In this document: positions 51,851 through 56,322 of the stretch, in pieces
Layout of the letters: each line of letters begins with the position of its first letter
Position numbering within the stretch: the first letter of the stretch is position 1
Source of the DNA: Zhongshania aquatica
Lineage (GTDB): Bacteria; Pseudomonadota; Gammaproteobacteria; Pseudomonadales; Spongiibacteraceae
Assembly: GCF_027257955.1 (NCBI RefSeq)
Contig: NZ_JANZNQ010000008.1
Location: 62,001 to 126,000, forward strand
Direction of reading: 5' to 3'
Length of the DNA stretch: 64,000 nucleotides
Notes under the pieces: model-generated
What the model was told of the DNA's origin: nothing
The model's input: only the letters and a program-made list of their open reading frames with translations
The model's database searches: none
Made by a program: the position numbers and the translations under genes

Positions 51851-52723
51851 CTAAGCCGCTGGTACTTCTTTATGCCTTAGCACCAGCACACCACCCAATA
51901 TCACGCAGGCAATCCCCATCATGGTTAGCGCACCGGGAATATGATCCCAAATCAGCCAATCTAATAAGCCGCTAAATACCACACCAAAATAGCTTATTGG
52001 TGCGAGCGCCGCCGCAGATACATAGCGATACGCCATGGTGTACATCACAAAGCTGAGATAAATAACCACGCCCATATAAATCAGTCCGGGCCACGCAGAT
52101 GCAGGTATGGCTTGATAATTCCATAGAAAAAAAGGAAGACTGAACAGCAGGGAAATACTGAAATAATAAAATAAAATACGATTTTGCGGCTCGTGTTGTG
52201 CCAATACACGTGTACTAACCATAGAAACCGCAAGTCCCAAACCCGACAGTAGCGCCAGTAAATGCCATAGGCTTAAACCTGCGGCTCCCGGTTTAAGCAC
52301 CAGCACCACACCCAAAAATCCCACCACCAAAGGCAGCCACGTTTCTCGACGCACTCGCTGGCTAAACCAAAGGTAGATTACCAGCGGTACCATTAAGGGC
52401 GCAGACGAACGTAGGAGTGTCGCATCGACCAACGATATTTTGCTTAACGCGATATAGTACAAATAAAAACACGCGCAGCCACTCATCCCTCTTATTAAGT
52501 GAATACCGGGGCGAGATGTCGCTAGCCCAGAGCGACCCGCTCGTAATACTGACGGTAGAGCAAATAAAAAACTGATGCCATATTGCACCAAGACAATGGC
52601 GGATACATGAACTTCTTGCGAGACATGCTTGCCGACAGCGGCAACTGTGCTTGAGAAAAACACCGTCACTAAAGACAGCGCTAAGCCAGTGAACAATTGT
52701 TTTCTTTCTATCGATAATGCCAA
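51851..52723 (-). CDS. EamA-family (DMT) transporter
   Basis: The 290-residue, ten-helix drug/metabolite transporter has two EamA repeats, with RGMSGCACFYLYYIALSKISLVDATLL in the first and LSFVMYTMAYRYVSAAALAPISYFGVV in the second (each longer than the motif itself). The start is a TTG. The substrate is unknown. It lies between the Bat operon and the HvfA-like gene. Confidence 0.85.
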   Translation of the reverse strand: MALSIERKQLFTGLALSLVTVFFSSTVAAVGKHVSQEVHVSAIVLVQYGISFLFALPSVLRAGRSGLATSRPGIHLIRGMSGCACFYLYYIALSKISLVDATLLRSSAPLMVPLVIYLWFSQRVRRETWLPLVVGFLGVVLVLKPGAAGLSLWHLLALLSGLGLAVSMVSTRVLAQHEPQNRILFYYFSISLLFSLPFFLWNYQAIPASAWPGLIYMGVVIYLSFVMYTMAYRYVSAAALAPISYFGVVFSGLLDWLIWDHIPGALTMMGIACVILGGVLVLRHKEVPAA

Positions 52724-52890: not shown

Positions 52891-53226
52891 TTACTTCTTA
52901 TCGGCGCCACATTTAGCTTCACCACACTTGCCCTCAGCAGCGGCTTTCTTTTCAGCACCGCATTTCGCTTCGCCGCACTTACCTTCAGCAGCCGCCTTCT
53001 TCTCGGCGCCGCACTTAGCTTCGCCACATTTCGCTTCAGCAGCTTTTTTCTCAGCGCCGCATTTCGCTTCACCACATTTACCTTCCGCGTCTTTAGCATA
53101 ATCAGCAAGCTGATAACCGCTGCTCATTACTGTTGCGGCAAAGGGGTTGGTATCTGCAACAGCAACTGATGCCATTGAGGAAGCTAGCATGGCCGCACCT
53201 AGTGCTGTCATCGCAGTATTTTTCAT
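52891..53226 (-). CDS. HvfA-like secreted Cys-rich repeat protein (putative copper-binding RiPP precursor)
   Basis: The 111-residue protein has a Sec signal (cleavage after VAVA near 24), a leader NPFAATVMSSGYQLADYAKD and four tandem units of 14-17 residues (48-63, 64-80, 81-97, 98-111). Each is a pair of EGKCG/EAKCG motifs, then AEKKAA. All eight cysteines (51, 56, 67, 72, 84, 89, 101, 106) lie in these motifs. This is the HvfA layout, in which MNIO enzymes convert EGKCG motifs to oxazolone/thioamide groups that bind copper. No MNIO gene is near. Promoter TTTGTAAC-N18-TCTTA matches that of the divergent DoxX gene. Product could alternatively be an unmodified metal-binding protein. Confidence 0.8.
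   Translation of the reverse strand: MKNTAMTALGAAMLASSMASVAVADTNPFAATVMSSGYQLADYAKDAEGKCGEAKCGAEKKAAEAKCGEAKCGAEKKAAAEGKCGEAKCGAEKKAAAEGKCGEAKCGADKK
52894..53085 (-). repeat. Tandem repeat inside the HvfA-like gene
   Basis: About four units of 48-51 bp (the last shorter) encode the paired EGKCG/EAKCG motifs. The DNA copies are similar but not identical, so the repeat seems old enough to have drifted at silent sites. Confidence 0.8.
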
Positions 53227-53289: not shown

Positions 53290-53320
53290 TAAGAGTAACA
53301 ACAAGTCACCATGTTACAAA
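53290..53320 (-). promoter_or_regulatory. Predicted ECF-type promoter of the HvfA-like gene
   Basis: On the minus strand TTTGTAAC (53313-53320) is followed after exactly 18 nt by TCTTA (53290-53294). The same sequence and spacing occur on the plus strand upstream of the DoxX gene. The RNA would start roughly 55-60 nt before the ATG. Confidence 0.65.
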
Positions 53321-53350: not shown

Positions 53351-53381
53351 TTTGTAACAAGATTTGTCGCGGTACGTCTTA
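53351..53381 (+). promoter_or_regulatory. Predicted ECF-type promoter of the DoxX-sigma operon
   Basis: TTTGTAAC (53351-53358), 18 nt, TCTTA (53377-53381). Spacing and both boxes equal those of the divergent HvfA-like promoter. The arrangement resembles ECF promoters with TGTAAC-type -35 elements and supports control of both units by the sigma factor encoded at 54160. Confidence 0.65.
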
Positions 53382-53457
53382 CCAGCATATACATATAACA
53401 CGATTACGCCGCCAAGCGGCTGCAATGTAATCACCCATGTCATACGAGGCAAACCTC

Positions 53458-54069
53458 ATGGTAGATTTTTTCAGTAAACTTCAAAGCATTCAAAACGGCC
53501 TAGGAAAACTCGTCACACCGCTAGATGGTTTGCCATCGCTTGCCCTGCGACTTTACCTAGTACCAATATTTTGGATGGCTGGCAGTAGTAAAATGAGGCA
53601 TTTTTCCGACACCGTGGAATGGTTTGGCAATAGTGACTGGGGCCTAGGACTTCCCTTCCCCCTTGTTATGGCTTTTTTAGCAACCGCCACCGAGATCATC
53701 GGTGCGGTCTTTCTTCTTATCGGCTTCGCAACCCGCTGGATATCTATTCCACTGGCTATCACCATGCTAATTGCGGCCACAACCGTTCACTGGCAAAACG
53801 GCTGGCAAGCCATCGCCGATGCAAGCGCGCCCTTCGCCAATGAACGCGTTGTTGATTCCGTTGACAAGCTCGCCGCAGCACGATCTTTGTTAGAAGCACA
53901 TGGCAACTACGACTGGCTTACATCCAGCGGAAAATTCGTGATACTCAATAACGGTATCGAATTCGCGGTCACGTATTTGATTATGTTACTTGCGCTCATG
54001 GTGTTGGGAGGTGGCCGTTTTCTTAGCGTAGATTATTGGATAGCTAAGCAAATACCCACAAGTAAATAA
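53458..54069 (+). CDS. DoxX-family membrane protein (HvfX-like)
   Basis: The 203-residue, four-helix DoxX protein has LALRLYLVPIFWMAGSSKM, then PFPLVMAFLATATEIIGAVFLLIG (over two helices) and a longer loop with HWQNGWQAIAD before the last helix. The ATG at 53458 has GAGG at 8 nt. DoxX proteins recur beside HvfA/DUF692 loci; their function is undefined. It shares its promoter type with the HvfA-like gene and precedes the sigma gene by 90 bp. Confidence 0.8.
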   Translation: MVDFFSKLQSIQNGLGKLVTPLDGLPSLALRLYLVPIFWMAGSSKMRHFSDTVEWFGNSDWGLGLPFPLVMAFLATATEIIGAVFLLIGFATRWISIPLAITMLIAATTVHWQNGWQAIADASAPFANERVVDSVDKLAAARSLLEAHGNYDWLTSSGKFVILNNGIEFAVTYLIMLLALMVLGGGRFLSVDYWIAKQIPTSK

Positions 54070-54159: not shown

Positions 54160-54774
54160 GTGTCATTGGCCGTTAACGAGCAGGAGCTTATCGCCCGTCT
54201 TAAAGCTGGCGATAACAATGCCTTCAAGCACCTTATCAGCGCGTATCACTTGAAATTAGTGATCGTTGCGAGGGCTATTGTCGGCGACGTCTTTGCTGAA
54301 GACGTCGCCCAAGAAGCCTGGGCTTCTATATATAAAGCCATTGGACACTTTGAAGGTCGCGCCAGCTTATCGACTTGGATGATTCAGATCGTCAGTAACG
54401 AAGCGAAGTCGAGATTACGGCGGGAAAAACGTCATAGTAGTTTTGGCGATATTGACGAGGTGCGCCCTGAGGTTGCTGCGGAAAACTTCGACGGCAACGG
54501 ACACTGGGTAAATCCACCAGCACATTGGGACATTAACACGCCGGAGCTTATGCTTCAGGAGGATCAACTAAGACACTGTATTGAGCACACTCTGACCATA
54601 TTGCCCGAAAATCAAAAGGCAGTTTTTTTGCTACGCGACGTTGAGCAACGCGATTTGGACGATATCGCCGAGTTACTTTCTTTGAGCGAGGCAAATGTTA
54701 GGGTGATTTTGCACCGTGCACGATTGCAACTTATGAAAACCATTAATCATTATCAGGAGACCGGAGAATGCTAA
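54160..54774 (+). CDS. ECF RNA polymerase sigma factor
   Basis: The 204-residue sigma-70-like factor has region 2 (FAEDVAQEAWASIYKAIGHFEG, FSTWMIQI-like LSTWMIQIVSNEAKSRLRR) and region 4 (LPENQKAVFLLRDVE...LSLSEANVRVILHRAR). The linker is long and acidic/aromatic (GHWVNPPAHWD). GTG start. Its stop overlaps the anti-sigma ATG by 7 nt, a typical sigma/anti-sigma pair. Confidence 0.9.
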   Translation: MSLAVNEQELIARLKAGDNNAFKHLISAYHLKLVIVARAIVGDVFAEDVAQEAWASIYKAIGHFEGRASLSTWMIQIVSNEAKSRLRREKRHSSFGDIDEVRPEVAAENFDGNGHWVNPPAHWDINTPELMLQEDQLRHCIEHTLTILPENQKAVFLLRDVEQRDLDDIAELLSLSEANVRVILHRARLQLMKTINHYQETGEC

Positions 54775-55025
54775 ATTGTAAGCAATTTACCGATCTTGCC
54801 AGCGAGCACATCGACCACGAGCATACCGGCTGGAAACGTGTCGAAGTTCGCTTGCACCTGATAATTTGTCGCCATTGCCGCCGCTTTAATCGCCACCTGG
54901 ATCGCAGTCGACAAACAGGTGCCACCATCGCTCAGCAAGTATGGCGCAGTGATGAGGGAACCAGCGACCTTATATTTTCGCGGATTATTGCTGCAGCTAA
55001 GAACAAAAACGACGCGAACCCTTAG
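54768..55025 (+). CDS. Short zinc-finger anti-sigma factor
   Basis: The 85-residue protein overlaps the sigma gene. It has the zf-HC2/ZAS motif EVRLHLIICRHCRRF (H-x3-C-x2-C) and an N-terminal CKQFTDLASEHID segment usual for sigma-binding ZAS domains. It lacks a membrane helix, so it is likely cytosolic. A redox or metal signal through the Cys/His site is possible; not shown. Confidence 0.82.
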   Translation: MLNCKQFTDLASEHIDHEHTGWKRVEVRLHLIICRHCRRFNRHLDRSRQTGATIAQQVWRSDEGTSDLIFSRIIAAAKNKNDANP

Positions 55026-55089: not shown

Positions 55090-56322
55090 CTAAACAGCAG
55101 GTAAATAGACCCTGAACTCTGCTCCAGCCCCGTCCTCGCTAAAAAGTACTATACGACCATCGTACTCATCAAGAATACGCCGACAGATAGCGAGACCAAT
55201 TCCATTGCCCTCATAGTCTTGCTCTGTATGCAAACGTTCAAACACACCAAAAATGCGTTTACTGTAGTGCGAAGCAATGCCGATGCCATTGTCTCTTATA
55301 TAAAAGCCGATCTCGCCACTTTCAGTGTCATTTAAGGGACCAATTTCAATTTTTGGTACGTCCTCGCTACGGCTAAACTTAATTGCATTATTCACTAATT
55401 GCGACATTAGTTTTGCTAAAGGTTCACTTGGCATGCGCGCCATATCTAAGGCTTCTCGCTGTAATACAACCCCATACTTCTTAATGTCATCCGCGTTCGC
55501 GAGTAAAGCCTGGTCGAGCGCCGCATCCAAGGACGATGACTCACCATCGTTCACCGGCTGAGGTAATGAATACTCATATAAATCATCGATCATCGATGTT
55601 GTGCGCTTTGCCGATGTCACAATCATCGTCAACCATTTCGCTTCGTCTTCCGCCAAGCGATCGGCCAATCGCTCTGATAATAAATCACCAAACACCGCAA
55701 TAGAGCGCAACGGCTCTTTAATATCTCTAGCGGTGATAGACGCATACTGCTCCAGAGCAGAGTTGGAACGCTCAAGCGACGCATGATTCTGCTCAAGCAA
55801 CCGTTTCATTACCCGTGTTTGTGCCAGCTCTTCAGTTCGCTCGTCAACCACTTGCTGCAAATCGCGGGTTAAACGCTCCACCTCCATACGCTGTTTAGCA
55901 TTTTCTTCTACTTCGTCGCGCAACTTCTGGTTCAAATCTAATAATTGCTGATTGCTTGGTAATGCCAATGCTTTAGGAATTAACGGCCAAACCGCGACGG
56001 CAGTTCCAACCGATGCAATGGCTGTTATCAATTTCACCAAACCACTTAACCAGTAGGCGCCGTACCAAACGTTAAAAATATTAATGAGATGGGTGGCACC
56101 GCAGGCAAAAATGAATATCGCAAACATCACGAACATAAAATTGAATTTTAAGTCGTCACGCCTGCGAACTAAATACACCAAGGCAATAGGTATAGTGAAA
56201 TACGAAATGGTAATTAGCGCGTCACTCCAAACGTGTAATCGCACCAAATCTTCATTCCACAGGTAGCAGTGCCCATGCGGAGGCATTTCTGGGCCAAGCA
56301 GAAAACTCATAAAATCTGACAT
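55090..56322 (-). CDS. Ethylene-receptor-like sensor kinase with His-to-Arg change in the H-box
   Basis: The 410-residue protein has three N-terminal membrane helices that match the ETR1 ethylene-binding domain: Asp34, Pro45, Ile71, Cys74, His78 (CGATH motif) correspond to ETR1 Asp25, Pro36, Ile62, Cys65 and His69, a constant offset of nine. These residues hold the Cu(I) cofactor in ETR1. A coiled coil (125-195) leads to a HisKA-like helix, YASITARDIKEPLRSI, where the usual His is Arg199. The ATP domain is intact: NNAIKF, DNGIGI, EGNGIGLAIC. It may sense copper or an alkene and signal without normal autophosphorylation. No GAF domain and no receiver. Confidence 0.85.
   Translation of the reverse strand: MSDFMSFLLGPEMPPHGHCYLWNEDLVRLHVWSDALITISYFTIPIALVYLVRRRDDLKFNFMFVMFAIFIFACGATHLINIFNVWYGAYWLSGLVKLITAIASVGTAVAVWPLIPKALALPSNQQLLDLNQKLRDEVEENAKQRMEVERLTRDLQQVVDERTEELAQTRVMKRLLEQNHASLERSNSALEQYASITARDIKEPLRSIAVFGDLLSERLADRLAEDEAKWLTMIVTSAKRTTSMIDDLYEYSLPQPVNDGESSSLDAALDQALLANADDIKKYGVVLQREALDMARMPSEPLAKLMSQLVNNAIKFSRSEDVPKIEIGPLNDTESGEIGFYIRDNGIGIASHYSKRIFGVFERLHTEQDYEGNGIGLAICRRILDEYDGRIVLFSEDGAGAEFRVYLPAV

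Follow-up and report, generated by a model that had tools for sequence, protein, structure and literature searches.

In the excerpts of the literature considered here, the hvf genes of Haemophilus influenzae are described as encoding HvfA, which carries a signal peptide and repeated EGKCG motifs, the MNIO HvfB, HvfC and the DoxX-like HvfX, the last of which was called uncharacterised (PMC13419390). The ECF factor RpoE2 of H. influenzae, together with a small cytoplasmic zinc-type anti-sigma factor, is reported to regulate a cluster of a DoxX-like, a COG3767, a COG3220 and a DUF2063 gene, and the rpoE2 region holds a gene for a DMT transporter (PMC7907618). The product of the FonABC system contains 5-thiooxazole and binds Cu (PMC13097082). 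Buf_EGKCG/oxazolin precursors that are unlinked to MNIO genes, as well as genomes in which multiple precursors accompany a single MNIO/partner pair, were described by Antoine et al. (2025), who proposed that the MNIO-remote precursors are modified at a distance or not at all (PMC12452194). In Caulobacter, one ECF factor, sigma-F, acts on two separate MNIO operons via GTAACC-N16-CGAA (PMC3511200).

The system of the Zhongshania genome analysed here has the same components as the oxazolin hvfABCX genes of H. influenzae, namely HvfA, HvfB, HvfC and HvfX, an ECF factor with a zinc-type anti-sigma factor, and a DMT transporter. However, hvfABCX forms one operon there, whereas two precursors and one maturase pair are present here, with hvfA2, hvfX and ecf apart from hvfBC. 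With the fontiphorin FonABC of the captophorin class it shares the Lys-Cys MNIO class and a core that mixes EAKCG and EGKCG; FonABC is a single cluster, and the part of the paper considered mentions no second precursor at a remote site (PMC13097082), while such a precursor is found here. The MNIO-unlinked precursors and the single MNIO/partner pair for several of them are as in Antoine et al. (2025), but species with only a remote EGKCG precursor and intact hvfBC, and an ECF promoter that links the loci, were seen only here and not in the covered part of that text (PMC12452194). As in the Caulobacter sigma-F regulon (PMC3511200), a single ECF factor is proposed, here from sequence, for separate MNIO-related loci; in Caulobacter each precursor is a DUF2282 protein with a DUF692 gene of its own, and the negative regulator is a DUF1109 protein, in contrast to the zf-HC2 anti-sigma factor and the -10 element CGTCT found here. 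Maturation in trans and the use of one MNIO/partner pair for several precursors are already in print as suggestions (PMC12452194). Beyond these, the portions of the literature consulted contained no earlier account of a distant precursor being matured, or of an ECF promoter common to separate loci, in the HvfA family; the species whose sole precursor is the remote one, and the promoter that the loci share, appear to be new. Drawing on the observed gene content, family membership, promoter matches and species pattern, we consider it very probable that the genes form a split, co-regulated captophorin system, in which two precursors are served in trans by one maturase pair.

The window, i.e., the whole 64-kb stretch of DNA that was analysed, covers positions 62001-126000 of contig C96 of genome G000, which was rated 100% complete. 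The hvfA2 gene (52891..53226, minus strand) was recognised as an ORF and by its match to NF050137; it starts with ATG in the ORF listing of the window and encodes a precursor of 111 aa with 8 Cys. The original prediction had placed all eight Cys in EGKCG or EAKCG motifs, five of them with Ala, and the motif count of three EGKCG and five EAKCG agrees exactly. These motifs make up the core (52894..53085, minus strand), in which eight E[GA]KCG are arranged in repeats of roughly 17 residues. Residues 1-24 (53155..53226, minus strand) are a candidate Sec-type signal region, picked by eye; the N-terminus is hydrophobic, ends in AVA and looks alike in 14 orthologues when judged by eye on the alignment. 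It is followed by the motif NPFAATVMSSGY (53113..53148, minus strand), conserved in the alignment of 14 HvfA2 and 17 HvfA1 proteins and similar in HvfA1, the precursor encoded beside the maturases; an NPF...GY block is common to both. This motif is a candidate recognition sequence for HvfC/HvfB.

Against NCBIfam NF050137, the HvfA domain model, HvfA2 scored 106.7 bits (cut-off 19.5) in four stretches with an E-value of 3.1e-31, which upholds the predicted HvfA-like assignment. Against the strict equivalog NF050188 it reached 81.0 bits, below the cut-off of 95. A profile search had been named as the check that could place the protein outside the family; it lies inside by the domain model and under the cut-off of the equivalog. 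The corresponding scores of HvfA1 were 62.6 and 32.4 bits, both lower than those of HvfA2, and because HvfA1 scores only 32.4 beside the maturases, the NF050188 cut-off was not taken as family-defining. The Pfam profile search of HvfA2 gave no match at E<=0.001, and the DUF2282 domain by which a Buf1 bufferin is recognised was thus lacking at this threshold. Fourteen of the 18 Zhongshania genomes, the own genome included, carry an HvfA-like ORF at the corresponding position, and this, together with the NF050137 match in four stretches, argues that the ORF is not a chance one. Judged by its sequence, HvfA2 is a true precursor of the HvfA family (Buf_EGKCG/oxazolin, 'captophorin').

No MNIO or DUF2063 gene was found within the 64-kb window by profile search (E<=0.001), as the original prediction had stated, but its wording that no maturase was in reach did not hold for the genome. 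The genome search for DUF692/MNIO and DUF2063 genes that it had called for returned one match each at the same threshold, both on contig C41: hvfB (C41:229498-230280, minus strand), the sole MNIO, and hvfC (C41:229172-229429, minus strand), the sole DUF2063 gene. HvfA is encoded at two places (C96 and C41), and two HvfX genes are present (C96 and C19). The gene order on C41 is hvfA1-hvfB-hvfC-mlaA (L003, 10760 down to 7896), and hvfA2 does not adjoin hvfB and hvfC, an adjacency that is usual but not obligatory in HvfA systems. HvfB scored 433 bits against the HvfB model (cut-off 360) and HvfC 296 bits against the HvfC model (cut-off 142); the solved structures nearest by sequence are 3bww and 3dee, respectively. 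The HvfB motifs GLGLRR and ERDFN were present in all 21 family genomes. For Lys-Cys MNIOs, a role in substrate selection or catalysis has been discussed for the FonB residues Arg15, Arg16, Asp249 and Phe250 (PMC13097082), and with these residues mapped by eye, the HvfB sequence has the Arg-Arg/Asp-Phe signature of the Lys-Cys captophorin MNIO class. The prediction had offered maturases in trans or a divergent, perhaps unmodified, protein; the first branch is supported by these findings, and the second is not, given the higher scores of HvfA2 relative to HvfA1 and the frequency of EAKCG described below.

Divergent from hvfA2 lies hvfX (53437..54069, plus strand), a member of the HvfX family (DoxX) that scored 237.8 bits against NF050144 (cut-off 80) and whose best named relatives are all from Zhongshania (80, 78, 76, 75 and 72% identity). 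It is followed by a gene for an ECF sigma factor with Sigma70 r2 and r4 regions (54160..54774, plus strand) and by asf (54768..55025, plus strand), which encodes an anti-sigma factor of 85 aa with a zf-HC2 domain and an H-x3-C-x2-C motif (HLIICRHC), all recognised by profile search. HvfX, the fourth gene of hvf clusters, had been missed in the original prediction. The domains correspond to an ECF sigma factor with a ZAS-type anti-sigma factor, and the H-x3-C-x2-C motif was present at 16 of 16 loci. The ECF factor is the only match of its genome at E<=1e-25, and one homologue per genome was found at this threshold in all 21 family genomes, with identities of 63-87% in other Zhongshania, except for G006 (40%), and of 41-44% in the sister genus. 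On the other side, 167 nt downstream of hvfA2 and in the same direction, the profile search placed an EamA/DMT transporter gene (51851..52723, minus strand), which is possibly co-transcribed with hvfA2; among the 16 hvfX loci in the genus, 12 had an EamA match within the stretch examined per locus.

A histidine kinase gene (window positions 55090-56322, minus strand) ends 64 nt from the anti-sigma gene. Its product has an ETR1-like N-terminal domain (126.9 bits) with the sequence CGATH, which we take to be the pair of Cu(I) ligands known from ethylene receptors. The ETR1-like kinase was seen at nine of 63 loci scanned, all of them in Zhongshania (eight genomes) and at the hvfX-ecf-asf locus. 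The second HvfX gene (C19:329366-329917; L011, 7139-7990, minus strand) encodes a protein of 283 aa whose C-terminus carries an additional charged tail, and is adjoined by prfA-, prmC- and ThiF-like ORFs (named by eye); no HvfA or HvfB match was found in the 15 kb examined around it. A similar-scoring second HvfX was present in 16 of the 18 genus genomes, counted by score.

The species pattern was analysed by profile searches of 57 genomes, which included 18 of Zhongshania, among them the own genome, and three of the sister genus (G018-G020). The MNIO coordinates of G017, G016 and G002 are identical to those in the named records of Z. aliphaticivorans, Z. marina and Z. antarctica, respectively, in agreement with the assignment of the genus. 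Both precursors, hvfA1 by hvfB and hvfA2 by hvfX, were found in ten of the 18 genus genomes (G000, G002, G003, G005, G007, G008, G010 and G015-G017), hvfA1 alone in four (G001, G004, G006 and G009) and hvfA2 alone in another four (G011-G014), each with hvfB and hvfC elsewhere. HvfB was kept in 18/18, and none of the 18 was without both precursors. Around hvfB of G011-G014, no HvfA-like ORF with at least two motifs was found in the 6.0-6.5 kb examined, a filter that an unlike precursor beside hvfB would escape. The HvfA2 of G014 gave no match in the NF050137 search; it was detected as an ORF through its seven E[GSA]KCG motifs. On the HvfB and HvfX trees, the absence of hvfA1 needs two changes (G011 with G014, and G012 with G013), and in the sister genus hvfA stands beside hvfB in 3/3. 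The hvf modules are not strictly tied to each other, since G001 and G004 keep hvfX-ecf-asf without hvfA2 and G009 is without an hvfX match. In G006, the ECF and anti-sigma genes and hvfA, B, C and X all lie at one locus. This unified locus was considered as the ancestor of the split one and dropped; within the genus, its HvfX, ECF factor and HvfB diverge most from the rest, and transfer is therefore possible. Further MNIO matches occurred in G013, G019 and G020; the second MNIO locus of G013 (L160) had no HvfA match.

A similar split was observed in Methylophaga, to which four of the 58 HvfX loci found in named genomes belong (L122, L140, L142 and L149). At these loci, hvfA-hvfX lies with a divergent ECF/anti-sigma pair, and no HvfB match was found in the 12.5-12.6 kb examined per locus. 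All four genomes encode an HvfB-type MNIO (GLGLRR, ERDFN) and HvfC away from the hvfX locus, with no HvfA-like ORF in the 6.5 kb examined around the MNIO gene, where the upstream side of L205 is short, as this locus starts 1.8 kb before the MNIO gene at a contig end. By coordinate arithmetic, the only NF050137 matches (E<=0.001) fall at the hvfX/ECF locus in 4/4 genomes, and in G067 about 520 kb of a single contig separates the hvfX locus from hvfB. In Simiduia and Cellvibrio, hvfX-ecf-anti-sigma stands alone in the stretch examined (L108 and L118) and hvfA adjoins hvfB elsewhere (L211 and L212).

These genomes bear on the possibility that HvfA2 is expressed but stays unmodified, as a Cys-repeat protein whose free thiols would by themselves buffer metal or redox stress. 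The position of hvfA2 away from hvfBC would fit such a protein, and Antoine et al. (2025) allow for a lack of modification in precursors encoded apart from MNIO genes (PMC12452194). Yet HvfBC is kept in four genomes of Zhongshania and four of Methylophaga in which only a remote HvfA was detected, so that the enzymes would be left there with no detected HvfA substrate. Moreover, in the 14 HvfA2 proteins all 110 Cys after NPF are strictly in E[GAS]KCG (57 EGKCG, 46 EAKCG and 7 ESKCG) and the leader motif is kept, and we regard an unmodified HvfA2 as very unlikely. A second possibility, that HvfA2 is a redundant duplicate without a distinct role which is drifting to loss, with its regulation incidental, would account for its being missing in four of the 18 genus genomes, including G001 and G004 with their hvfX-ecf-asf. 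Against this, in four species it is hvfA1 and not hvfA2 that is missing, all 14 HvfA2 copies have canonical motifs, and the irregular motifs belong to HvfA1, in which 148 of 176 Cys (17 proteins) are in E[GA]KCG and 28 outside. The pooled pN/pS of the leader region (38 codons, ten genomes with both precursors) was 0.12 for HvfA2 and 0.16 for HvfA1, and a drifting duplicate is in our judgement unlikely.

Published work bears on the recognition and chemistry of maturation by HvfBC. HvfBC modifies full-length HvfA much better than signal-less HvfA (PMC13419390), which makes the N-terminal region of HvfA the likely recognition part. EAKCG is a common motif of the family, as counted in HvfA1 and HvfA2 proteins. 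Each conversion of a Cys into a 5-thiooxazole lowers the mass by 4 Da. In a shortened FonA with the core EAKCGEGKCG, as read from the variant names, both Cys were modified with a shift of -8 Da in the presence of FonBC, and the variants at positions 1 and 2 that were not processed carried Pro, or Arg at position 1 (PMC13097082). Because the EAKCGEGKCG core is processed, EAKCG is no sign of an unmodified protein, and the view that EAKCG is divergent was rejected on the FonA data and on the frequency of the motif in HvfA proteins. The oxazolone and thioamide groups named in the original prediction have since been revised in print to 5-thiooxazole, according to the parts of the two papers considered (PMC13097082, PMC13419390).

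Both sides of the hvfA2-hvfX intergenic region carry ECF-type promoter sequences. The pattern scan placed TGTAACAAGATTTGTCGCGGTACGTCT, an exact TGTAAC-N16-CGTCT, at 53353..53379 (plus strand), facing hvfX-ecf-asf, and the intergenic alignment placed one with a weaker -10 (TGTAACATGGTGACTTGTTGTTACTCT) at 53292..53318 (minus strand), facing hvfA2. Three exact matches were found in the own genome: the one before hvfX, one before hvfA1BC (C41:230972-230998, minus strand) and one at the start of a DUF1223 gene (C107:61022, genome-wide scan). The DUF1223 gene (L214, 4037-4879, plus strand; 150.8 bits, cut-off 30.7; sequence EGCSSCPSA) is a candidate third member of the regulon. In the intergenic alignment, TGTAAC-N16-CGTC faced hvfX in 14 of 16 genomes, the stretch of G012 and G013 being too short and their motif found by scan; the exact CGTCT form was present at 15 of 16 hvfX loci, with CGTCA in G011. 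TGTAAC faced hvfA2 in 14/14 genomes, with a weaker -10. At the MNIO loci of the genus, the exact motif occurred at eight of 18.

Over the 18 genomes, the strict motif had 51 hits, 23 at hvf loci (15 before hvfX and eight before hvfA1 or hvfB) and 28 elsewhere. A reversed-pattern control was as frequent, with five hits against three in G000 and 50 against 51 over the 18 genomes, and the four one-mismatch matches in the window were equalled by four of 100 shuffles. As the control hits as often and the number is not above chance, the counts mean little and the positions do; it is the placement of the motif at hvf loci that is striking, not its number of hits. Among 15 motif loci inspected, one (L179) is an hvfX locus, and a DUF1223-like ORF follows in four of the 14 others and not in ten. 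A scan with TGTAAC-N15..17-[CAG]NTCT gave 24 hits in 299,096 bases, a set that is largely sequence around the loci treated here with duplicates included, and only one of them (L168, position 579, plus strand) lay at neither an hvf nor a DUF1223 gene.

These results also bear on whether the ECF factor of the window controls hvfA1BC at all, or whether TGTAAC-N16-CGTC is there by chance or through the coding constraint of hrpA. In most Zhongshania, TGTAAC lies inside the last hrpA codons (by eye), and because of this overlap its conservation before hvfA1 is perhaps due in part to coding. The frequency of the reversed-pattern control genome-wide and a sigma70-like hexamer pair upstream of hvfA1 (by eye) point in the same direction. 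However, a relaxed pattern, TGTAAC-N16 or N17-NRTC, whose NRTC ends were chosen after the sequences were viewed, stands before hvfA1 or hvfB in 21/21 family genomes (18 by pattern; G001, G012 and G013 by eye), and TGTAAC lies past the hrpA stop in G014 and close to the gene in G006 and G018-G020 (by eye). The third genome-wide match at the DUF1223 gene, with DUF1223-like ORFs likewise after the motif in G007, G015 and, as a fragment of 74 aa, G017, and the control of two separate Caulobacter bufferin operons by one ECF factor (PMC3511200) argue for shared control as well. Taken together, an hvfA1BC operon outside the control of this ECF factor seems rather unlikely to us, although it keeps some weight. 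In Methylophaga, the TGTAAC-N16-CGTC match before hvfA (L140) is a plausible promoter; matches inside the ECF genes were discounted as probably coding.

For the split, co-regulated system, the following course can be envisaged. Stress, perhaps by copper or an oxidant, would free the ECF factor from its anti-sigma factor, which may be a thiol- or metal-sensing zinc protein that releases sigma. With RNA polymerase, the ECF factor would then give transcripts of hvfA2 (perhaps with eamA), hvfX-ecf-asf, hvfA1BC and the DUF1223 gene, pairing with TGTAAC-N16-CGTCT-type promoters and joining the loci hvfA2|hvfX-ecf-asf and hvfA1-hvfB-hvfC-mlaA. HvfB-HvfC made from C41 may recognise the signal-plus-leader of HvfA2 in the cytoplasm before export and modify both HvfA1 and HvfA2, presumably converting their Cys into 5-thiooxazoles, and the exported HvfA2 product would bind excess copper. 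More tentatively, and at somewhat less than even odds, we suggest a division of labour for the one HvfBC pair, with HvfA1 made beside the enzymes and HvfA2 tied to a membrane partner of its own, HvfX, under the ECF stress switch, some lineages being obligately split, with their sole precursor gene apart from the maturase genes and the shared promoter replacing linkage. The species with only the remote precursor make the question of modification in trans or none (PMC12452194) directly testable in a single strain by a single mass spectrum. If the proposal is true, genome mining that demands a precursor beside the MNIO gene misses substrates, and a shared ECF promoter is a route to such remote precursors. 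The conserved hvfX-ecf-anti-sigma module offers a handle on HvfX.

In Acinetobacter (L105, L107, L109, L110, L114-L116 and L120), hvfX is divergent from hvfA-hvfB-hvfC-ecf-anti-sigma, i.e., the arrangement is unsplit, and the ECF factor of this locus is distant (65-71 bits). Its identity with SigAb was considered and dropped, as the SigAb promoter differs (GTCAAC, CGTT; PMC12153292); the text on SigAb, in the part considered, contained no mention of DUF, DoxX, RiPP or bufferin (PMC12153292). HvfX genes of Alteromonadaceae, Colwellia, Bowmanella and Thiomicrorhabdus (L106, L111-L113, L119, L121, L124 and L131-L133) had no HvfA, HvfB or HvfC match within the stretch examined. A second MNIO type (GLGLRT, ERDDN) was seen at two Methylophaga loci (L204 and L208), adjacent to short Cys-rich ORFs that contain repeats of the kind CKGHNDCK.
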